Shown in pieces: positions 13,388-55,794 of a DNA stretch of 55,794 nt (positions are counted from its first letter, which is position 1; each line of letters starts with the position of its first letter). The position numbers were made by a program, and so were the translations under genes. The stretch lies in IMG/VR virus record IMGVR_UViG_3300034374_009302, positions 1 through 55,794 of that record. One strand, given 5' to 3'. Under the pieces are notes generated by a model that was not told the origin of the DNA, searched no databases, and was given only the letters and a program-made list of their open reading frames with translations. Source of the DNA: a virus.

Positions 13388-15400
13388 ATGATTGAGTCTG
13401 TAGACCCTAATGACAACCCACGTGGAGACAAGAAAAAATCCAACTCACCAACTCCGGTGTTGGACAACTTCTCTCGTGATTTGAATAAGTTAGCGGAGAT
13501 GGGAAAACTCGACCCTGTGGTGGGTCGTGAACGTGAGATTGACCGAATCGCACAAATCCTTTCTCGTAGAAAGAAAAACAACCCTATCATCATTGGCGAG
13601 CCAGGCGCTGGTAAGACCGCCATTGTTGAAGGATTGGCGATGAAGATTTTCGAAGGTGATTGTCCTCGTAATCTTTGTGATAAACGCATCGTTTCTTTGG
13701 ACCTCACATCCATCGTTGCAGGAACTAAGTATCGTGGACAGTTTGAGGAACGTCTAAAGGTTATTTTGGATGAACTTCACGACAATCCTGATATCATCAT
13801 CTTCATCGATGAGATTCACACCATTATTGGTACTGGTAACGCATCAGGTTCATTGGATGCATCCAACATCTTCAAACCGGCACTTGCTCGTGGTGAACTA
13901 CAATGTATCGGAGCAACGACTCTTGACGAATACCGTGAGAACATTGAGAAGGACGGAGCATTGGAACGTCGTTTCCAAAAAGTAGTCGTGGACGGGGCAA
14001 CACCTGAAGAGACAATGATTATCCTTTCCAACCTCAAGTCTCGTTACGAGTCTCACCACAAAGTAAACTACACTGACAAATCGTTAGAAGCATGTGTATA
14101 CTTAGCTGACCGTTACATCACAGACCGTGAGTTCCCTGATAAAGCTATTGACATCATGGATGAGGTGGGTGCACGAACACAGATTTCTGTGAAACTACCT
14201 GAAGAGATTGAGGTATTGAAGGAAGAGGCACTCAAAATCAAGCAGGAGAAAATTGACGTGGTAAAACGTCAGGACTATGAGAAAGCAGCACATCTACGTG
14301 ACAAAGAACGTAAGGTATTGGAAAAGTTAGAGAAGGTTAAGGAAGATTTTGAAAAGAAGCAAGATACCGAGCGTAAAGATGTCACTGAAGAAATGGTTTA
14401 TGATGTGGTGGCAAACATGACCAAGATTCCAGTATCCAAACTCAACCAAAATGAGATGGATGGTTTGTTGGAGTTGGAAAACAGCCTCAATAAGACGGTC
14501 ATCGGTCAAGAACCAGCGGTTAAGAAGATTGCAAAAGCTATCCGTCGTAACCGTGTGGGTATCAAAGACCCCAACCGACCAATCGGTTCTTTCATCTTCT
14601 TAGGTTCAACTGGTATTGGTAAGACTCACTTGGCAAAACAGTTGGCGAAAGAAATCTTCGGTGACGAAGACGCACTCATCCGAGTGGATATGAGTGAATA
14701 CCAAGAGAAATACACCATGTCTCGTTTGATTGGTTCTCCTCCAGGATATGTGGGTCACGACCAAGGTGGTCAACTTACCGAGGCGGTGAAGAACAAACCT
14801 TACTCAGTGGTATTGTTTGATGAGATTGAAAAGGCAAACAAAGACATCTTCTCACTTCTTCTTCAGATGATGGACGATGGTCACCTAACAGACAGTTTCG
14901 GTCGCAAGATTAACTTCAAAAACTGTTTAATTATTATGACATCAAACTTGGGTGTTAAGAAACTTCAAGACTTCGGAGCGGGTGTAGGTTTTGATACCAA
15001 CGCAAGAATGAGTGGTGATGAGGACCTGAAAAAGGCTCTCCTTCAAAAAGAGTTGAAGAACCACTTTACCCCTGAGTTCTTAAACCGTTTGGATGAGGTG
15101 ATTGTCTTCAACCCTCTCAAAGAAACTGAAGTTCGTCAGATTGTGGACATCGAGTTATCTAAACTCAGCAAACGTTTGGATAAGTTGGGTTACAACATCG
15201 ACATTACCAAAGAACTACGTGATATGTTGGCAGATATCGGTTTCGATGAGAAATACGGAGCACGTCCTATCAAACGAGCAATCCAAGAGAAGATTGAAGA
15301 TTTTATCTCTGAAGAAGTTCTTCGTGGTAAGATTAAAATCGGAAACTCTTACACCTTAGAGGTTGAGGAAGAGAATGTTGTATTAAAAGAGGGGAATTAA
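13388..15400 (+). CDS. clpC: ClpC-type AAA+ unfoldase lacking the N-domain
   Basis: The 670-residue protein has both ClpC ATPase rings: D1 with GEPGAGKT (70-77), IIIFIDE (136-142) and ERRFQ; D2 with GSTGIGKT (406-413), VVLFDE (474-479) and the C-terminal domain. A short middle domain (about 275-330) contains a UVR-like [23 protein letters not shown] tripeptide at 533-535 sits where ClpC contacts ClpP, so host ClpP could be used. Host ClpC is about 820-850 residues; here the adaptor-binding N-domain is absent and the protein opens just before D1. Neighbours are a UVR protein and a peptidase. Codons end in C more often than in adjacent genes, possibly from recent host acquisition. Confidence 0.93.
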
Positions 15401-20248: not shown

Positions 20249-20645
20249 GGGGGTGAATTGGAATCGATTGGCGTAGATAGTCATACGGGGCACGTAGTGA
20301 GATGTTATCTATCACTTTAATCTATGGTGACACTTTTTTTAACTGGCGAAACAATCGCAAAACTTCAGGCTGTCGGTCTTATCCGCACTGAAGAAGTAAC
20401 TGTGGCGTAAGACGCAACAGTGAAACGGGTCGGTGGACATATAACCTTTGAACAGAAGTCTGTATATGGGAGTCACAGGTCAGAGCTCTCTTAAATAACT
20501 CTGAGACCAGGTTGTTTATTGGTTTGTTTCCCACACACATCAAACCATTTATTTCGGAATGTTGAGAACCAACATTGACCTAAACGTGTAGTCCTTTATG
20601 GGTGATGCGAACAAGACTCGGGTTCGACTCCCGACACCTCCACCA
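20249..20645 (+). ncRNA. ssrA: tmRNA with an unusual 21-codon tag
   Basis: This 397-base RNA has tmRNA ends. The 5' GGGGGTG pairs over 7 bp with CACCTCC before the encoded A-CCA, and the third pair is G-U, the alanine identity element. GGGTTCGACTCCC forms the T arm, and AACTGGCGAA marks the resume site as in other Bacteroidetes. The tag frame runs from GGC at 20345 to TAA at 20408: GETIAKLQAV, GL, IRTEEVTVA. The stop lies in the loop of the hairpin CTGT-GCGT/ACGC-ACAG. Bacteroidetes tags I recall are about nine residues and end ALAA (for example GETNYALAA), so this tag is longer and ends VTVA. No smpB was seen in the window. Confidence 0.93.
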
Positions 20646-21386: not shown

Positions 21387-21698
21387 ATGACTGAATTAAC
21401 ACAAGACAATTTGGGTGAAATCTTATCGTCAAACAATAAGGTTATGGTCCAATACGGTGCAGGATGGTGTGGTAACTGTCGTTTGACAAAACCTAAGTTC
21501 AAAAGAATGTCCTCAGAAAATCAGGACATCACATTCGTTTATGTGGATGCTGAGAAACTACCAGGTTCACGTCAGTTCGCAGATGTTTCAAACCTACCAA
21601 CCTTCGCAGGATTTGTGGACGGCAAGTTGGTGAAACAATCTCAAGGAAATAAAATTGAAGTTATACAAGACGTATTACATGAGGTTACCAATCATTAA
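21387..21698 (+). CDS. Thioredoxin-family protein (WCGNC)
   Basis: The 103-residue protein has the redox motif WCGNC (Cys28, Cys31) and the cis-Pro segment NLPTFAGF. It is the probable reductant of the peroxiredoxin encoded immediately upstream. Its 3' end overlaps the next gene by 20 bases. The same trio of genes in this order is found in Flavobacteriia (from memory), so the block looks like a captured host operon. Confidence 0.9.
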   Translation: MTELTQDNLGEILSSNNKVMVQYGAGWCGNCRLTKPKFKRMSSENQDITFVYVDAEKLPGSRQFADVSNLPTFAGFVDGKLVKQSQGNKIEVIQDVLHEVTNH

Positions 21699-44668: not shown

Positions 44669-45259
44669 ATGAAGAAATTATTGTTTGGGGTATTACTATC
44701 CTTTGGTTCGCATTCCTTATATGGCAACACAGAAAAAACGGACACCATAAAGACTAATATTTTTGAGATTGTCTACTCAGAAACATTAGAACAACCTTTA
44801 TGGATTAGATATAAGGTTTTGTGTCCTATGGGAACCGAAAAACGTTCAGGATTAGACTTCTATACCAACGATAGTATCCATACCTCAGACGTTGAAGATT
44901 ATAAGGATAATGTTTACGACAGAGGTCACTTGGCACCTGCGGCTGCGTTTAGTTGTAATAGAGACACACTTAAACAGACCTTCACTTATTTAAACTGTGC
45001 ACTTCAACACGAAGGGTTAAACAGAGGTCCATGGAAAGACTTAGAAGAGATTGAAAGAGGGTTACCTTTATTTGTTGGTGAAGTGTGGGTGGAAATCTAT
45101 GTAAGGTTCGATGAAACCCCTAAAAAGGTAGATGGTGGTGCATCTATCCCAAAAGGATTTGACAAATTCATTTATTTTAACGATACTGTGGTTAAGTTCT
45201 CATTTCCAAATGTGGATGTAGCAGGAGAACCATGGGAAAATTTCAGAGTAATAGAATAA
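44669..45259 (+). CDS. Secreted DNA/RNA non-specific endonuclease
   Basis: With ATG at 44669 the protein has 196 residues and begins with a signal peptide (MKKLLFGVLLSFGSHSLYGN). The NUC-family active site DRGHLAPAAAF (84-94) holds the general base His87, and LNCALQHEGLNRGPWKDLE contains the metal-binding Asn (about 118). An upstream ATG (44651) would bury the signal. The enzyme is exported, so it would degrade DNA in the periplasm or outside, not phage DNA in the cytoplasm. Its stop overlaps the next start (TAATG). Confidence 0.88.
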   Translation: MKKLLFGVLLSFGSHSLYGNTEKTDTIKTNIFEIVYSETLEQPLWIRYKVLCPMGTEKRSGLDFYTNDSIHTSDVEDYKDNVYDRGHLAPAAAFSCNRDTLKQTFTYLNCALQHEGLNRGPWKDLEEIERGLPLFVGEVWVEIYVRFDETPKKVDGGASIPKGFDKFIYFNDTVVKFSFPNVDVAGEPWENFRVIE

Positions 45260-45660
45260 TGGAGTTATTAAACACACACCCGATTAAGAAATCAGATTTA
45301 GGTTTTCACGGAAACCTATTCGGAGGAAAATTATTAGCATGGTTGGATGCCAGTGCTGCGGCTTACGCCATGCAAGTTTGTGACACACCGAGAATGGTTA
45401 CAGTAAAAATTGATGAATGTGTTTTCAGTAAACCCGCAAAAGAAGGTCAACTTCTTAAGATTTATGCTGAAGTGGTTTCTTTTGGAAACACGTCCATTAC
45501 CATTTATATGGAAGCACGTTCTCACAATGTTTATTCAGGAAAACAGAACGTCATTTTGTCTACTAACATAAAATTTGTTAGAATTGATGAAGTGGGAGAC
45601 CCCGTCCCAATCTCAGAAAGGGTAAAACAAAAATATGAACATAAATTAAATTCAAAATAA
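45259..45660 (+). CDS. Hotdog-fold acyl-CoA thioesterase
   Basis: The start at 45259 (MELLNTHPIKKSDLGFHGNL) gives 133 residues. GNLFGGKLLAWLDASAAAYA with Asn19 and Asp30, then VTVKIDECVFSKPAKEGQLL, match YciA-type acyl-CoA thioesterases. It hydrolyses acyl-CoA to free acid and CoA. It is coupled to the nuclease gene by TAATG and followed by an FKBP gene, which suggests a captured host cluster. A role in lipid change during infection is possible. Confidence 0.85.
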   Translation: MELLNTHPIKKSDLGFHGNLFGGKLLAWLDASAAAYAMQVCDTPRMVTVKIDECVFSKPAKEGQLLKIYAEVVSFGNTSITIYMEARSHNVYSGKQNVILSTNIKFVRIDEVGDPVPISERVKQKYEHKLNSK

Positions 45661-45665
45661 GTAAC

Positions 45666-46094
45666 ATGGAAGTAAAACAAGGAGACCAAGTAAAGGTCAA
45701 TTACATCGGAACATTAAACGACGGAACTGAATTCGACAACTCATATAAAAGAGGAGAACCTTTGACATTCACAGCTGGTACGGGTATGATGATTGAAGGT
45801 TTTGATAACGCAGTTATGGGTATGACTGTAGGTGATAAGAAAACCGTTAACATTCCTAACGAACAAGCTTATGGACCACAAAACCCTGATGCGTTTATGC
45901 CAGTACCTAAGACTAACTTCCCACCAGACTTCAAAGCTGTTGTAGGTGAGATGGTTCAAGGTCAGACAGAAACAGGACAACCTGTGACTGCAGCAATCGT
46001 AGAAGTAACAGAAAACGACATCGTTTTGGACCTCAACCACCCACTCGCAGGTGAGGACCTAAACTTCGAAATTGAGTTAGTCGAAATCGGTTAA
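45666..46094 (+). CDS. FKBP-type peptidyl-prolyl isomerase, SlyD-like
   Basis: The 142-residue protein has the FKBP core (VKVNYIGTLNDGTEFDNSY, MIEGFDNAVMGMTVGDKKTV, QAYG) with an inserted flap (about 72-120, PDAFMPVPKTNFPPDF), as in SlyD. There is no His-rich tail. It speeds prolyl isomerisation and can act as a chaperone. It begins five bases after the thioesterase stop and is the last gene before the small RNA. Confidence 0.9.
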   Translation: MEVKQGDQVKVNYIGTLNDGTEFDNSYKRGEPLTFTAGTGMMIEGFDNAVMGMTVGDKKTVNIPNEQAYGPQNPDAFMPVPKTNFPPDFKAVVGEMVQGQTETGQPVTAAIVEVTENDIVLDLNHPLAGEDLNFEIELVEIG

Positions 46095-46287: not shown

Positions 46288-48132
46288 ATGAACATTATCG
46301 GAATACACACTGGTCATGATGCGGCACTGTCTCTAATAAAAGACGGAAGACTTCATACCGCAATTTCAATGGAGCGTCTATCGAGAATCAAAAAAGATGC
46401 TGAGGTAACAAAAGAAAACTTTGATTTATTTTTAGATAAATGTGGTATTACATTGGATGATGTGGATGCCATTACTATGGCGTATTGGGACCATGGTTTT
46501 GCTAGATTCATGAGAATCTATTCCCCTGAAAATGAAAAATATCCTCTGAGTATATTTGGTAAATACGGTATGGAGTCGGCGGTAATGAACCATTTAGAAA
46601 GTTATTGGAGACCTGACCGAATGCCACAATATGTTAGTGGTGTGGGTTATACCTTACCTGACGTATTAGACCGATTAAGACCTCCAATGATATCAACATG
46701 GTCGACTTTTAGACCATTTATAAATTTAAATGTTACCATTGAAGGTTACGACCGAGTGATACCTGGTTATTTTATTGACCACCATATTGCACATGCAGCT
46801 TCAACGTTCTTCACCTCACCCTATAAAAAGGCAACAATATTCACGGCAGACGCCTCAATGTTTAATGATACATCATGTAGTGGTTATTTTTGGGGTATAG
46901 ATAATAGGTTAAATTACTTCAGAAACCCTGGATATATGTGGGGTAACTTTTATGATGTAGCAACTGAATTCTGTGGTTTAGGACCTGGCACTTTAAAAGC
47001 TGGAACACTAATGGGTTTATCTTCATATGGAACTGTTAGTAAGAACGCAAGGGACAATTGGGAGTTTTGGACTCGACCTCAACATGAAGTTGGGACTGAA
47101 GCCATTTATTATGATGATTGGTTGTTCTTACAAATCTCAGGAAAATATCCATACATAGGTGATATTCGAGAAGAGATAGATAATAACGAACCTGGTTCTT
47201 GGCATTATACCAGAGAATACCAATATGTTTACCCTAAAGAGATGGTGGACAGCAAAGAGGTTATGGATATTGCAGCAGACATTCAATACGTAACGGAAAG
47301 GTCTTTGGTTAAATATAGTGAGGATTTATATAACGAAAGTAAGACTATCAATGATGGCAACTTATGTTTGGCTGGTGGGACGTTCTTAAATTGTAACGCA
47401 AACTATAAAATCAAAACTGAAACAAGTTTTGATAATGTTCACATATTTCCAGCTTGTGGCGATGATGGTGTCACTGTTGGTTCTTCACTTTTTGCACTCC
47501 ATACTTTAATGGGTTATAAAAGAGAAGTTTATCAACCAAAAGATTTAATGTATTTAGGTTTTGAATACGACCATCAACCTGAAAGTCCATATAAATCAAT
47601 GGATTTAGATTTAAGATTTGTTGCTGAACAAATTGCTGAAGGTAAGATTGTTTGTTGGTTCCAGGGTCGTTCAGAGTTTGGTCCACGAGCATTAGGTAGT
47701 CGTTCATTCATCAGTGACCCTCGCAGGGTGGAGATGAAAGATATTCTTAATTCACGAGTCAAGTTTAGAGAGTGGTTTAGACCGTTCGCACCTGTAGTAT
47801 TAAAAGAACATAAGGAAGAATGGTTCGATATGGATTTTGATAGTCCGTTTATGTTACACACCGTTCCATGTAAAAGGCCAACTGAAATTCCTTCTGCCGT
47901 TCATATTGACAACACATCAAGGGTTCAGACAATTGATAAGTCTGACAATGAAAGATTCTACGATTTGATTTATAATTTCTATGAACTTACAGGTGTACCC
48001 GTAGTTATGAACACCTCATTAAACATTAAAGGACAACCGATTGTGGAAACACCTGAGGATGTGATGGAACTATTTGTGGAGTCCGATGTCGATGTGTTAG
48101 TAATAAACGATAAAGTATATTTGAAGGAGTAA
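46288..48132 (+). CDS. Carbamoyltransferase (NodU/TobZ family), copy 1
   Basis: The 614-residue protein begins MNIIGIHTGHDAALSLIKDG and has the metal/substrate motif IDHHIAHAAS (163-172), LCLAGGTFLNCNANYKI, WFQGRSEFGPRALGSRSF and NTSLNIKGQPIVETPED. This family transfers carbamoyl from carbamoyl phosphate, via carbamoyl-AMP, to a hydroxyl group. Phage-encoded members have been reported to carbamoylate 5-hydroxymethylcytosine in DNA; sugar or lipid targets are also known in the family. A second copy lies 1.2 kb downstream. No cytosine hydroxymethylase was seen in the window, so the acceptor is open. Confidence 0.9.
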   Translation: MNIIGIHTGHDAALSLIKDGRLHTAISMERLSRIKKDAEVTKENFDLFLDKCGITLDDVDAITMAYWDHGFARFMRIYSPENEKYPLSIFGKYGMESAVMNHLESYWRPDRMPQYVSGVGYTLPDVLDRLRPPMISTWSTFRPFINLNVTIEGYDRVIPGYFIDHHIAHAASTFFTSPYKKATIFTADASMFNDTSCSGYFWGIDNRLNYFRNPGYMWGNFYDVATEFCGLGPGTLKAGTLMGLSSYGTVSKNARDNWEFWTRPQHEVGTEAIYYDDWLFLQISGKYPYIGDIREEIDNNEPGSWHYTREYQYVYPKEMVDSKEVMDIAADIQYVTERSLVKYSEDLYNESKTINDGNLCLAGGTFLNCNANYKIKTETSFDNVHIFPACGDDGVTVGSSLFALHTLMGYKREVYQPKDLMYLGFEYDHQPESPYKSMDLDLRFVAEQIAEGKIVCWFQGRSEFGPRALGSRSFISDPRRVEMKDILNSRVKFREWFRPFAPVVLKEHKEEWFDMDFDSPFMLHTVPCKRPTEIPSAVHIDNTSRVQTIDKSDNERFYDLIYNFYELTGVPVVMNTSLNIKGQPIVETPEDVMELFVESDVDVLVINDKVYLKE

Positions 48133-48770: not shown

Positions 48771-49342
48771 AATTATATTGGTTCGATAGTCACCACCTAA
48801 CTTATAAGCTAGTCCCTGTTCGTTGGGTGGTGTTTTTATTAGTATTTTTGGGAGTTTCAATATTCTCAATAGGTTATAAAATTAATTCACCCACTGAATT
48901 TGAAGACCTTACCAAATATGAACAGGAACTATTAATATTATCTATTAAGGATACTATCCACAACTTTAATGAGGATAAATTAATTGACCTTATGAAACAG
49001 TTGAATATTAAGTTTCCACACATAGTTTTAGCTCAATCTAAGATTGAAACAGGTCATTACTCTTCTCGTATTTTTAGAGAAAATCATAACCTATTTGGTA
49101 TGAAAGAAGCCAGAACGAGAATCAAAACCGCAAAGGGAACACAATACTCTCACGCTTATTATGCGAATTGGAGGGAGAGTGTTTATGATTATGCGTTTTA
49201 CCAATGTCGATATTTGGGTAGAATTACCGATGAAGAAGAATACCTAACATATCTTTCTCAGAGTTATGCCGAGGACCCTAATTATATCTCAAAGATTAGG
49301 AAGCTAATAAAAGACGAAGATTTAAGAAGTAAGTTCGAATGA
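48767..49342 (+). CDS. Membrane-anchored glucosaminidase-like lysis protein
   Basis: The 191-residue protein has one membrane segment at 19-37 (RWVVFLLVFLGVSIFSIGYK) and then a glucosaminidase domain: LAQSKIETGHYSSRIFRENH with catalytic Glu94, NLFGMKEAR, AYYANWRESVYDYAFYQ. It would hydrolyse peptidoglycan glycan strands from the outer face of the inner membrane. With the amidase endolysin it is the second wall hydrolase in the window; signal-anchor tethering is typical of holin-independent endolysins, which is inference here. Its stop overlaps the second carbamoyltransferase start. Confidence 0.8.
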   Translation: MKLYWFDSHHLTYKLVPVRWVVFLLVFLGVSIFSIGYKINSPTEFEDLTKYEQELLILSIKDTIHNFNEDKLIDLMKQLNIKFPHIVLAQSKIETGHYSSRIFRENHNLFGMKEARTRIKTAKGTQYSHAYYANWRESVYDYAFYQCRYLGRITDEEEYLTYLSQSYAEDPNYISKIRKLIKDEDLRSKFE

Positions 49343-51015
49343 TAATAATGGGATTTTTACACGGTCATGATGCCGGTGCGACGTTAATAATAGATGGAGA
49401 GATTGTTGTCTCAATTTCTGAAGAAAGATTAAATAGGAAAAAGAAGAATATTGCTTCGTATTTGAAATACCCGCCCGTTCAATCGATGCAGTATTGTGTA
49501 AGTTATGCGGGTATTACATTAGAGGATGTAGACCTGTTTGTTTATAACGAAACTGACCGAAGTATCGACCCCATTCATTTTTTATCTTACACATTTGGAC
49601 TTGACCCTGAAAAATTCAAATACTTAACTCATCACGATGCCCACATCTATTCCACTTACTTAACTTCAAACTTTAAAGAAACAAATGTGGTCATTGCCGA
49701 TGGTGCGGGTGAAGATTTAATTAAGGGTAAACGTGGGTATAATTACTTTGAAAACCGTGGGTATAATTTAGCCGACACATCTGACTTAGACCATAACTTT
49801 ACCGAAGGTTGGACCATATCTTTTATGAATGGACAAGACCATATGGACACAAATAAGAAATGGTTAAAGACACTTAAAAAACCATGGGATTATATGGATG
49901 AAGCATCCATCGGTCTTATGTATGATATTGCTGCGTGGCAATTGGTTTCAAACCATAAAAATTGGCCAAGTGCGGGTAAGGTAATGGGTTTAGCGTCTTA
50001 TGCTAATAAAAAATGGGTAAACCAACAAGAACGAAACTACTATATCGATGGTGAAGATTTGGTAATCCCACATAGACAATTACATTCAGATGTAAATAAA
50101 GACTCAGACTTTCAGGACAAAGCTAATGTTGCTGGTGTTTACCAAAGAGAGCAAGAGGAAACAACAATGTTCCTAATCGAAAAATCAAAGAAACTTACAG
50201 ACGTAGAAAACCTATGTGTTGCCGGTGGCTCATTTTTGAACTGTAATACAAACTACAACATCCTAAAATCAGGGTTATATAAGAATGTTCATTTATTTCC
50301 ACCTTTGGATGACTCAGGGGTATCTTTAGGTTGTGCATTGTGGGGAGCATTCAAATACGATAAATTAAACAGAAAAGACTTTTTCAATCCATATTTGGGT
50401 AGACCATATTCCGATATTGAAATTTTCAATGTTATATCTCAAAATGATAAGGTGAGGTATGAAGAGTATAATAACGATACTCTTCTAACTAAAAAGGTTG
50501 CTGAATTATTAAACGAGGATAAGGTTATTGGTTGGTATCAGGGAGGTGCTGAGATTGGTCCGAGAGCGTTAGGTAACAGAAGTATTTTAGCATCACCAAG
50601 ACCTGATTGGATGAGAGACCACATTAACAATAACGTTAAGTTAAGAGAATGGTATAGACCATTCGCACCTGCAGTCTTATTTGAAAGACAGTCTGAGATT
50701 TTTGATTTGGATTACTTCTCACCATACATGTTGGTAACGGCTCAGGTTAATGAAGAATGGAGGGATAAGATTCCAGCGGTGACTCATCACGACAACACTG
50801 CCAGGTACCAGTCGGTTACCGAACAAACAAACAGTAAATTCTACAACCTAATTAAGGAGTTTGACAATCTGACAGGTATCCCTGTTTTGTTAAACACCAG
50901 CTTCAACGGTCCAACGGAACCAATAGTTGAAACACCTGAGGATGCATTAAAATCATTTTTGGAATTGGATATTGATATTTTAGTGATGGACAATTTTGTA
51001 ATTAGCAAAAAATGA
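49339..51015 (+). CDS. Carbamoyltransferase (NodU/TobZ family), copy 2
   Basis: The 558-residue protein starts MIIMGFLHGHDAGATLIIDG and has YLTHHDAHIYSTYLTS, LCVAGGSFLNCNTNYNIL, WYQGGAEIGPRALGNRSILA and NTSFNGPTEPIVETPED. It shares the overall layout of copy 1 but differs widely in sequence, so it is an old paralogue or a separate acquisition. The family reaction is carbamoyl transfer to a hydroxyl; the two enzymes may act on different acceptors. The ATGA overlap at 49339 supports the first ATG. Confidence 0.9.
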   Translation: MIIMGFLHGHDAGATLIIDGEIVVSISEERLNRKKKNIASYLKYPPVQSMQYCVSYAGITLEDVDLFVYNETDRSIDPIHFLSYTFGLDPEKFKYLTHHDAHIYSTYLTSNFKETNVVIADGAGEDLIKGKRGYNYFENRGYNLADTSDLDHNFTEGWTISFMNGQDHMDTNKKWLKTLKKPWDYMDEASIGLMYDIAAWQLVSNHKNWPSAGKVMGLASYANKKWVNQQERNYYIDGEDLVIPHRQLHSDVNKDSDFQDKANVAGVYQREQEETTMFLIEKSKKLTDVENLCVAGGSFLNCNTNYNILKSGLYKNVHLFPPLDDSGVSLGCALWGAFKYDKLNRKDFFNPYLGRPYSDIEIFNVISQNDKVRYEEYNNDTLLTKKVAELLNEDKVIGWYQGGAEIGPRALGNRSILASPRPDWMRDHINNNVKLREWYRPFAPAVLFERQSEIFDLDYFSPYMLVTAQVNEEWRDKIPAVTHHDNTARYQSVTEQTNSKFYNLIKEFDNLTGIPVLLNTSFNGPTEPIVETPEDALKSFLELDIDILVMDNFVISKK

Positions 51016-54597: not shown

Positions 54598-54684
54598 ATG
54601 ATTGAGTTTCCGGTAATGGTATTGTTATTGACTTGTTTTTTAACAGGTTTGTTTATAATCTTAAAAGATAGAAGAAAAGAATGA
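54598..54684 (+). CDS. Membrane microprotein, 28 residues
   Basis: ATG at 54598 encodes MIEFPVMVLLLTCFLTGLFI and then ILKDRRKE: a single membrane helix with a basic end. Its stop overlaps the following start (ATGA). Small size limits confidence, but the ordered overlaps support it. Confidence 0.55.
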   Translation: MIEFPVMVLLLTCFLTGLFIILKDRRKE

Positions 54685-54920
54685 GATTGTTAGGTTTTCT
54701 TGGTATTTTGCTTATGTTTGTAATTCAATGTAGTATTGATGAGAACTTTACCGTGAATGAAAAAACTGTTGACTTATCTGAGTTGGATAGTGTTGATTGT
54801 GTGGTATGGTGGGAAGTTCAGAACGACACCTTAAAGATTTGGACTGAGGAAGATGAAAGAAAAAGTGACATTGACCGTTTGAATTACATTCGTTCATTAG
54901 ACACAACAGGATGGGAATAA
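54681..54920 (+). CDS. Small lipoprotein
   Basis: The 79-residue protein begins MRLLGFLGILLMFVIQCSID, a signal with a possible lipobox (FVIQC). The mature part is short and acidic (EEDERKSDIDRLNYIRSLDT). The ATGA overlap with the previous microprotein supports the start. It precedes the TFNTKER array by one base. Confidence 0.65.
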   Translation: MRLLGFLGILLMFVIQCSIDENFTVNEKTVDLSELDSVDCVVWWEVQNDTLKIWTEEDERKSDIDRLNYIRSLDTTGWE

Positions 54921-54921
54921 G

Positions 54922-55041
54922 ATGAAAGATAAAGTATTAAGATTTAACAACGACTGGAAAGGTCGTAGACTATACGAAGAGAATAAAAAGAAAGAGTCTG
55001 TTAATAAGACTAAAACCTTTAACACCAAAGAGAATGGGTAA
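54922..55041 (+). CDS. TFNTKER-array gene 1 (39 residues, ends TFNTKENG)
   Basis: The frame reads MKDKVLRFNNDWKGRRLYEE and ends KTKTFNTKENG. The C-terminus is encoded by the first copy of the array repeat, which also carries the start codon of the next gene (8-base overlap). The body is basic and helical. No family recognised. Confidence 0.65.
   Translation: MKDKVLRFNNDWKGRRLYEENKKKESVNKTKTFNTKENG
55015..55036 (+). repeat. TFNTKER repeat copy 1
   Basis: ACCTTTAACACCAAAGAGA is followed by ATG directly; two bases shorter than the other copies, which changes the overlap from 4 to 8 bases. Confidence 0.85.
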
Positions 55042-55183
55042 ATACTTAAAGCAAGGATTTGTAAGAGCGTTAGAGTGGCAACTTAATAGAGAAGAAATCT
55101 CCTACTCAAAATGGGTTGACCTAATGGAGGAGGAGTGTATTAAGAACTACAAAGAAGAAACCTTTAACACCAAAGAGAGATGA
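55034..55183 (+). CDS. TFNTKER-array gene 2 (49 residues)
   Basis: The frame reads MGKYLKQGFVRALEWQLNRE and ends YKEETFNTKER. The body is an amphipathic helix with acidic centre (MEEECIKNYKEE). Body sequence differs from all neighbours while the last seven residues match copies 3-5. Stop and next start overlap as ATGA. Confidence 0.7.
   Translation: MGKYLKQGFVRALEWQLNREEISYSKWVDLMEEECIKNYKEETFNTKER
55160..55183 (+). repeat. TFNTKER repeat copy 2
   Basis: ACCTTTAACACCAAAGAGA followed by GATGA: encodes the tag, the stop, and the next gene's ATG. Confidence 0.9.
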
Positions 55184-55374
55184 GTGATTGGACTTATGAG
55201 ATAATTGAAATGAGTAATAGTGACAGCGAGTGGTTTGTTAAAGCAAAAGATGGAGTGCCGTCTATATTGAAAATTAAGTTTCAGAAGGAGTGTGAATTAG
55301 ATAGAATCATCACCTACACTTTTAATGATGAACAAATTCTAAATACAACAACCTTTAACACCAAAGAGAAATGA
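55180..55374 (+). CDS. TFNTKER-array gene 3 (64 residues, ends TFNTKEK)
   Basis: The 64-residue protein starts MSDWTYEIIEMSNSDSEWFV and looks like a small beta-rich domain (ILKIKFQKECELDRIITYTF) before TTTFNTKEK. The ATGA overlap sets the start. No family recognised. Confidence 0.7.
   Translation: MSDWTYEIIEMSNSDSEWFVKAKDGVPSILKIKFQKECELDRIITYTFNDEQILNTTTFNTKEK
55351..55374 (+). repeat. TFNTKER repeat copy 3
   Basis: ACCTTTAACACCAAAGAGA followed by AATGA; the last tag residue is Lys instead of Arg. Confidence 0.9.
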
Positions 55375-55655
55375 GTGAAGTAAATCCAAATTACAATCCA
55401 CAAGCAGATTTTGACAACTTTGGTGAAGAGATGGAACACATCGTTAAGACAACACCTAAAGAGGTGCTAAAAAAGGAGTGGGATAAAGTATTAGCAGAAT
55501 ATGGTACTGATACACACGACAAGATTCTATCTATGACTGGTGACTTTGTTCAGTCTAATCGTAGTGAAGGACAAACCTATGCTCATTATCACTATGATAT
55601 GATGGCAGACTTTGCTCTACATATATTAGAAACCTTTAACACCAAAGAGAGATGA
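55371..55655 (+). CDS. TFNTKER-array gene 4 (94 residues)
   Basis: The 94-residue protein starts MSEVNPNYNPQADFDNFGEE and contains VLAEYGTDTHDKILSMTGDF and YAHYHYDMMADFALHILETF, ending TFNTKER. It is acidic and helical with a His/Tyr patch (AHYHYDMM) that could bind metal. ATGA overlaps mark both ends. Confidence 0.7.
   Translation: MSEVNPNYNPQADFDNFGEEMEHIVKTTPKEVLKKEWDKVLAEYGTDTHDKILSMTGDFVQSNRSEGQTYAHYHYDMMADFALHILETFNTKER
55632..55655 (+). repeat. TFNTKER repeat copy 4
   Basis: ACCTTTAACACCAAAGAGA followed by GATGA, identical to copy 2. Confidence 0.9.
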
Positions 55656-55720
55656 AAGAAAAAGACACTGAGAAGCCCCTAGTGGTAATAGTTTACACCT
55701 TTAACACTAAAGAGAGATGA
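55652..55720 (+). CDS. TFNTKER-array gene 5 (22 residues)
   Basis: The frame encodes MKEKDTEKPLVVIVYTFNTK and then ER. Only 15 residues precede the tag. Being so short, it may be a remnant of a lost cassette or a true micropeptide. ATGA overlaps at both ends are kept. Confidence 0.55.
   Translation: MKEKDTEKPLVVIVYTFNTKER
55697..55720 (+). repeat. TFNTKER repeat copy 5
   Basis: ACCTTTAACACTAAAGAGA followed by GATGA; one silent change (ACC to ACT) from copies 2 and 4. Confidence 0.9.
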
Positions 55721-55794
55721 AAACACCAATCTATATAACACGAACTTGGTTTAGAATATTTGGATACGGATTAAGTTGGACTAAACAACCAAGA
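55717..55794 (+). CDS. TFNTKER-array gene 6, partial
   Basis: The frame opens MKTPIYITRTWFRIFGYGLS followed by WTKQPR and runs off the right edge. FRIFGYGLSWT resembles a small phage protein I recall, with FGYGLxWK near its start. Whether it too ends in TFNTKER cannot be seen. Confidence 0.6.
   Translation, partial: MKTPIYITRTWFRIFGYGLSWTKQPR

Follow-up and report, generated by a model that had tools for sequence, protein, structure and literature searches.

A recurrent stop/start joint between small phage genes, a likely point of exchange for single-gene cassettes

The window analysed here, a viral IMG/VR record of 55,794 bp taken in full, ends inside a run of small open reading frames (ORFs) that are connected by nearly the same short sequence, and this joint recurs at hundreds of junctions between small genes of many families in other phages, where the genes on its two sides reassort freely. 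We consider it likely that this end of the window marks the border of a modular array of accessory genes, in which the joint combines a stop, a translation start and a stretch of homology, and in which annealing-type recombination swaps working genes.

The run of joints at the end of the window

The joint ACCTTTAACACYAAAGAGA is present in five copies between 55015 and 55715 on the plus strand (start positions 55015, 55160, 55351, 55632 and 55697). Four copies are exact, one carries a single C>T change, and all are stop/start junctions. When up to three mismatches are allowed, 0.05 copies are expected in the window from shuffled sequence, and five or more copies were reached in none of 100 shuffles; the array of tiny genes with a repeated stop/start cassette that had been claimed in the original prediction was confirmed at all five junctions. 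A scan of the rest of the window at the same tolerance gave no sixth copy. Each of the five ORFs ending at a joint overlaps the ATG of the ORF downstream, and their C-terminal ends are, in order, TFNTKENG, TFNTKER, TFNTKEK, TFNTKER and TFNTKER. The run is laid out as follows, up to position 55794, where the record ends inside it:

54922..55041, + strand: first ORF of the run, MKDKVLRF...TFNTKENG, 39 aa, with no joint before its own ATG
55014..55036, + strand: joint 1, AACCTTTAACACCAAAGAGAATG, including the start codon of the next ORF
55034..55183, + strand: cassette ORF MGKYLKQ..., 49 aa; DNA identity 97% to the L015/G011 cassette and 86% to that of G001
55159..55182, + strand: joint 2, AACCTTTAACACCAAAGAGAGATG
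55180..55374, + strand: cassette ORF MSDWTYE..., 64 aa; 92% DNA identity to a cassette of L206, with other neighbours there
55350..55373, + strand: joint 3, AACCTTTAACACCAAAGAGAAATG
55371..55655, + strand: cassette ORF MSEVNPNY..., 94 aa; DNA identity about 100% to G001 (L052, the 212-kb phage) and 99% to L286
55631..55654, + strand: joint 4, AACCTTTAACACCAAAGAGAGATG
55652..55720, + strand: tiny cassette ORF MKEKDTEKPLVVIVYTFNTKER, 22 aa; homologue in L205
55696..55719, + strand: joint 5, CACCTTTAACACTAAAGAGAGATG, with one mismatch in the 19-base core
55717..55794, + strand: first part of the following cassette ORF, MKTPIYITRTW..., truncated where the record ends

The first ORF of the run had no relative among the fetched cassettes. 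Joint 1 is spaced one base closer to its ATG (GAGAATGG) than the other window joints, and we assigned this spacing to the downstream gene, since homologues in L136, L144 and L108 share it. The gene that follows the MGKYLKQ cassette is different in every matching phage (L015/G011 and G001), and the neighbours of the MSEVNPNY cassette in G001 and L286 also differ from those in the window. The C-terminal half of the MSEVNPNY ORF is common to cassette proteins of other phages that belong to the MKTP type described below (first ORF of L233). The tail peptide of the 22-aa ORF is not conserved, as the L205 homologue reads on in another frame.

Spread of the joint and reassortment of the cassettes

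The array loci are all metagenomic contigs. Joint and locus counts are lower bounds and, with one of the scans behind the collection picked for the MKTP gene start, do not measure prevalence. With up to three mismatches, at least 598 joints were found in 231 loci, against none in a reversed-sequence control; with up to four mismatches, a later set held at least 754. Overall, IMG/VR gave about 750 copies from some 266 loci. Two or more joints are present in 151 of the 231 loci, and mixed strands were found in none of these 151. At least 120 IMG/VR stretches contain the exact 19-mer, which is nearly absent from cellular genomes (6 stretches in 257 Gb). Among the cellular matches are a 3.8-kb contig of a 'Euryarchaeota' MAG, in which the 19-mer is followed by a leader-like sequence and then ATG, and a 6-kb contig of a 'Rickettsiaceae' MAG; the others are without array context or near chance. 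By eye, at least two of the six stretches, in short or MAG contigs, look like mis-binned virus. The MAG contigs L126, L128 and L127, called Euryarchaeota, Rickettsiaceae and Pseudomonadales, have an ATG preceded by a joint; they are probably phage sequence placed in the wrong genome bins. INPHARED isolates gave no joint match and no DNA or cassette relative, the first 50 kb of each of the isolates elemoE_10-3D and Leptolyngbya phage Lbo-JY46 held no comparable array, and a search through a flanking protein found no close relatives of the window phage. The TFNTKER peptide was not mentioned in the literature searched.

The joint consensus, WAACCTTTAAMACCAAAGAGARATGA, is about 25 bp long. Its conservation is uneven by position, with no uniform identity: the 3' part, AAMACCAAAGAGARATGA, is nearly invariant except for the bases M and R and one C/A position. 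An ATG follows directly after about 96% of the joints and is missing after about 4% (7 of 191 in one set and 30 of 754 in the larger one), which indicates that a role in translation is not universal. The base R, at joint position -1 (GAGAGATG or GAGAAATG), is nearly uniform within contigs (0.82 versus 0.50 after permutation), and the other variable bases show hardly any such homogeneity. This uniformity of R is not explained by simple crossover.

Arrays hold up to 21 copies of the joint, and arrays of 10-21 joints are present among the collected loci. Joints are spaced at a median of 218 nt, and the median ORF has 68 aa. In most contigs, including genomes of up to 212 kb, the joints are confined to one small region and the other genes have none. 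Relatives carry longer arrays, and many contigs break inside arrays. A joint lies within 600 bp of a contig end in 12 of the 32 large contigs, and near both ends in 5 of these 12, as is expected if assembly breaks at a variable array.

Reassortment was followed in pairs of deduplicated joints from different contigs. Among 466 pairs that share the right gene, the left gene was also shared in 18; for the 398 pairs that share the left gene, the right one was likewise shared in 18. The probability that the left gene is the same when the right one is the same was 0.03-0.04 at joints, against 0.44 where other, ordinary genes of these contigs start; in loci chosen by the joint alone it was 0.04. Identity falls to background exactly at the edges of the joint, and within it the linkage changes by degrees, at first following the gene on the left and then the one on the right. 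Moreover, joints cover 1.4% of the sequence, yet 41% and 28% of the ends of internal alignments lie on them. At least two contigs share each of 77 junctions, including alternative partners of one gene.

Single events could be read from nearly identical contigs. L224 and L211 differ from L290, which is 99.9% identical on both sides, by one extra 203-bp cassette (MREILLEMYERLW...) between two joints; the single joint of L290 has the M base of the first of these joints and the gene of the second, which places the crossover to the right of M. L009 and L013 (99.9%) differ by one MKTP cassette beside a tRNA-Arg gene, and their single joint matches the right-hand joint from the left of M onwards, which places the crossover to the left of M. 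The crossover point thus varies between these two informative events, as homologous recombination predicts, unlike a fixed-site recombinase. Cassette replacements were seen in L085/L029 compared with L222 and in L217/L232 compared with L227. The window itself takes part in this exchange between distant phages: its cassettes are 97-100% identical in DNA to cassettes of G011 and G001, whereas core genes of the three are about 25-50% identical, with a few metabolic genes up to 78%.

The original prediction had suggested that homologous joints let cassettes be gained and lost, and this view is strongly supported by the free reassortment, the one-cassette differences between near-identical contigs and the exchange between distant phages. 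The checks proposed with it gave the joint at gene junctions of other phage contigs and cassette exchange in the gene content of relatives. The opposite outcome, an absence of repeats from related phages or a single local duplication, was looked for and did not occur. The cassettes fall into 206 families, 144 of them singletons, and local duplication of one gene was rejected on these numbers.

Translation, recombination and alternative explanations

The joint lies flush with the ATG; its positions -14, -13, -11 and -6 are A, -12 is A or C, and -3 is G, not A. In Flavobacterium johnsoniae, A at -14 to -11 (mainly -12/-13), -6 and -3 raises translation (PMC6847099). The same A-rich -14 to -11 block precedes the non-array genes of the array phages. 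The joint matches the start context that is general in these phages only moderately well, and 10 of 300 shuffles of the consensus did equally well. By its place, its lack of structure and its A-rich features, the joint is likely to act as a ribosome-loading or translation start element, a role compatible with the data. The consensus has no GGAGG, AAAGAGA being the only similar stretch, and a Shine-Dalgarno reading was rejected because this core is absent. A role of RNA structure was also rejected, as no structure was found: the joint folds with -0.5 kcal/mol, and the window junctions fold no better than shuffles.

These features could also mean that the joint is primarily a site of regulatory or translational control, comparable to the start-associated sequences of cluster K mycobacteriophages, to which a phage factor or a modified ribosome binds, and that shuffling is a by-product of its repetition. 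Its position flush before the ATG, its single orientation, its position-dependent conservation, its match to the A-14 to -11 and A-6 determinants and the presence of genes for the ribosomal protein bS21 in the large T4-like contigs and the window all agree with such a site. However, a general control site is hard to reconcile with a joint that keeps to a single small region even where genomes reach 212 kb and is not found before other genes, that flanks noncoding cassettes and follows tRNA genes; furthermore, no bS21 gene was found in the crAss-like and podoviral array contigs, some of which are incomplete. We regard this explanation as improbable, at roughly one chance in five.

One-gene cassettes that all point the same way and share a short site recall an integron, in which an integrase acts at attC or attI, and a recombinase might work on the joint in a similar manner. 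However, neither the tyrosine recombinase family PF00589 nor the serine recombinase family PF00239 was detected in the 32 large contigs (31-212 kb, which may be incomplete), while all 14 control genomes scored in the PF00589 search. The variable crossover point (to the right of M in L290 and to the left of it in L009), the lack of a symmetric or folded structure in the joint and the recombination of MKTP genes at a second, different sequence also speak against a site-specific system. We rejected integron-type, site-specific recombination because recombinases were not found and crossover points vary; in our estimate it is decidedly unlikely. In G005, G007 and G012 the array has an Erf annealase gene at a distance of 2-3 kb, and Erf was found in only 5 of the 32 large contigs.

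The failure to find recombinases, the Erf genes near arrays and the unstructured, A-rich joint flush with the ATG led us to a reading in which the joint combines stop, start and homology. The unit of the array would be one small gene followed by the shared joint of about 25 bp. The joint would end the upstream gene, with TGA in one frame or TAA in a second, and start the next one, with ATG and an A-rich unstructured upstream sequence of the kind that Flavobacterium ribosomes favour. It would also provide identical DNA for phage homologous recombination, by which one gene may be deleted, inserted or replaced and the junction would still work. The recombination would most likely be single-strand annealing, carried out by an annealase of the phage as its DNA replicates or in co-infected cells, and the cassette genes may be conditionally useful factors of host takeover or counter-defence. 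A wider form of this annealing model, to which we give slightly less than an even chance, is a community-wide, recombinase-free exchange of cassettes among distant Bacteroidota phages, in which the joint is a common plug for any gene, inserted by annealing and translated at once, and in which a second joint inside MKTP genes, CTTGAGAAAGAGAAAGAG, adds combinatorial two-module proteins.

In length and fixity the joint may resemble the promoters of single-subunit RNA polymerases, and a promoter of a phage RNA polymerase might stand before each gene. However, nearly leaderless mRNAs would then result at every tiny gene, and the joint is confined to the array. No terminators were found in 54600-55794, and a scan of the region with a sigma-70 model, which does not cover Bacteroidota and phage promoters, gave no excess. 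A promoter reading was set aside on the lack of sigma-70 excess and the confinement of joints to arrays, and we consider it very unlikely.

Repeats of about 25 bp can mislead low-k assembly, and many contigs break in arrays, so that short repeats might have joined different genes in the metagenome assemblies. Against such an artefact, the 77 recurring junctions include alternative junctions of one gene that each recur, arrays reach 10-21 joints, and the internal joint inside genes behaves alike. Chimaeras may occur in metagenome contigs, but the recurring junctions make them unlikely as an explanation of the arrays, and we give an artefact hardly any credence.

The original prediction had also offered a common C-terminal tag that sends the products to one partner or protease, and the TFNTKE frame is indeed used at all five window junctions. 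Among 404 measured junctions with an ORF, the upstream ORF ends at the TGA of the joint (TFNTKE[RK]) in 189, at the TAA of TTTAA in another frame (..NL*) in 65, and before the joint in 121. About half of the junctions thus read another frame or lie past the upstream stop. Joints directly follow tRNA genes in L009 and L098 and lie on either side of short noncoding cassettes that hold AATAGGCGCA repeats, and there is free circulation of cassettes that lack the peptide. The synonymous positions of the joint are as fixed as its other positions. The earlier view that constraint acts on the DNA or RNA, not only on the peptide, agrees with these results. The tag appears to be a by-product, since the joint lies in several reading frames; frame use at the junctions led us to reject a tag function, which we find barely conceivable.

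Known systems, cassette contents and carrier phages

The Start Associated Sequences of cluster K mycobacteriophages (SAS/ESAS) have a 13-bp consensus, GGGATAGGAGCCC, with a Shine-Dalgarno core, and 11-19 copies over half a genome, in one cluster with one stray copy, and translation is suspected as their function (PMC3203893). They share with the joint a short asymmetric repeat in many copies and one orientation, directly before the ATG of small non-structural genes, which sometimes holds the upstream stop codon and is nearly absent from the host. The joint is placed in the manner of SAS: ATG follows about 96% of the copies, strands are mixed in none of 151 loci, and most contigs have the copies in a single region per genome. 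However, its consensus WAACCTTTAAMACCAAAGAGARATGA differs from theirs, its copies form a compact array and are not spread over half a genome, and SAS are not known to let cassettes reassort freely between unrelated phage groups.

PeSLs are intergenic early promoters with stem-loops. These promoter/terminator motifs of T4-type phages, reportedly the subject of work by Arbiol in 2010 and Comeau in 2014, are said to be, like the joint, repeated gene-border motifs that mediate modular shuffling of small accessory genes. The joint differs from PeSLs of this description in having no stem-loop or terminator, in lying inside a stop/start overlap with the start codon included, and in being common to crAss-like, podoviral and T4-like phages. 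The array looks like an integron without a recombinase: it has one-gene cassettes in one orientation, a short common site and contents from a large shared pool, whereas no integrase and no attC-type fold were found, the crossover point is not fixed and the joint lies within coding sequence. In the mosaicism of lambdoid phages and mycobacteriophages, boundary sequences between modules are short shared recombination sites at gene borders. The joint is likewise a short shared sequence at a gene border where recombination occurs, but one joint serves hundreds of junctions and many gene families, and the unit is a single small gene. The joint departs from SAS, PeSL and integron alike in a defining feature that was tested. 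We place it with the modular shuffling already known from repeated motifs at gene borders, as a variant whose reach and compact layout are unusual.

If the annealing model is correct, distant phage lineages trade single working genes without an integrase, through a junction of stop, start and homology, and the joint gives a countable handle on the old question of how the accessory genes and ORFans of phages travel and are still expressed at each new place. It could serve as a search key for an exchange pool in aquatic Bacteroidota phages, in which the cassettes would be candidate small proteins of host takeover or counter-defence.

Substitutions in the cassette ORFs are concentrated at codon position 3 (2412, against 1012 at position 1 and 637 at position 2), which indicates real genes under codon-level constraint. 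The cassette proteins gave no Pfam or PADLOC matches, and only a few matched PHROGs, all without an assigned function. The commonest family, MKTP..., accounts for 141 of 534 distinct ORFs. Its proteins have a constant start, a variable N module, a LEKEKE block, a variable C module and a constant end. The second joint, CTTGAGAAAGAGAAAGAG, is internal to these genes and differs from the main one. Sequence identity collapses at LEKEKE, and the DNA of this block is fixed beyond the protein (Leu as CTT in 97% versus 17% elsewhere, Glu as GAG in 85% versus 36%). Pairs with the same N module have unrelated C modules in 183 of 245 cases, and those with the same C module have unrelated N modules in 132 of 202. 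When clustered automatically, 122 proteins resolved into 49 N modules and 65 C modules, joined in 89 combinations; these counts depend on the threshold. The internal joint suggests combinatorial protein building in viruses. The predicted structure of the family is a helical hairpin (pLDDT 88), with no significant match among viral folds.

Some elements beside the joints are noncoding. A cassette of about 45 nt, AATAGGCGCAACCTATTAAAAATAGGCGCA, lies between two joints in L204:1269, L238, L280 and L059 (oriented loci), and GGCGCAA sequences related to it often stand directly before a joint. In L082:9341-9500, a joint is followed by a tRNA-like sequence missed by ARAGORN and by a degenerate joint, probably another noncoding cassette. 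A composite leader was seen before different genes in 17 places of 14 loci, including L121, L262, L206, L071 and L306; it consists of a joint, an ORF of 8-9 aa, MSRCTPHR(K), a hairpin and the real ATG. It had no Rfam match in the four loci searched, and its hairpin shows paired changes (GCAAAT/ATTTGC, GATAAAT/ATTTATC and GTAAAT/ATTTAC).

The carriers belong to different phage groups. By its terminase, portal and capsid, G003 (101 kb) is crAss-like. G005 belongs with the elemo-like podoviruses, and many of its genes are shared by G007, G008 and G009. Both G001 (212 kb) and the window are T4-like, and identity between the two is low. The isolates nearest to the array phages are mostly Flavobacterium and Cellulophaga phages, and these sequence relationships suggest that the array phages probably infect Bacteroidota. 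The closest isolate terminase to that of G003 is from Leptolyngbya phage Lbo-JY46 (PP438436.1, 38.9%), recorded from a cyanobacterium, and this host assignment may deserve a check.

The window encodes bS21 at 2557-2748 (+; Pfam PF01165, E 2e-12), a gene also found in array contigs above 160 kb (G001, G051-G054) and in G058, and a complete tmRNA gene lies at 20249-20645 (+), with the tag peptide AKLQAVGLIRTEEVTVA. Two carbamoyltransferases (46288-48132 and 49339-51015), a thioesterase (45232-45660), an FKBP (45666-46094), a thioredoxin (21387-21698) and a Clp ATPase (13388-15400) make up an unusual metabolic load for a phage fragment. Finally, another gene-border element is present in ten copies in G005 (contig positions 12,600-15,370, minus strand, locus L180): a GC-rich hairpin, different in sequence each time, is followed by the constant GGTTACTGATAACTTAA shortly before the ATG. 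This element looks like a PeSL-type motif, separate from the joint.
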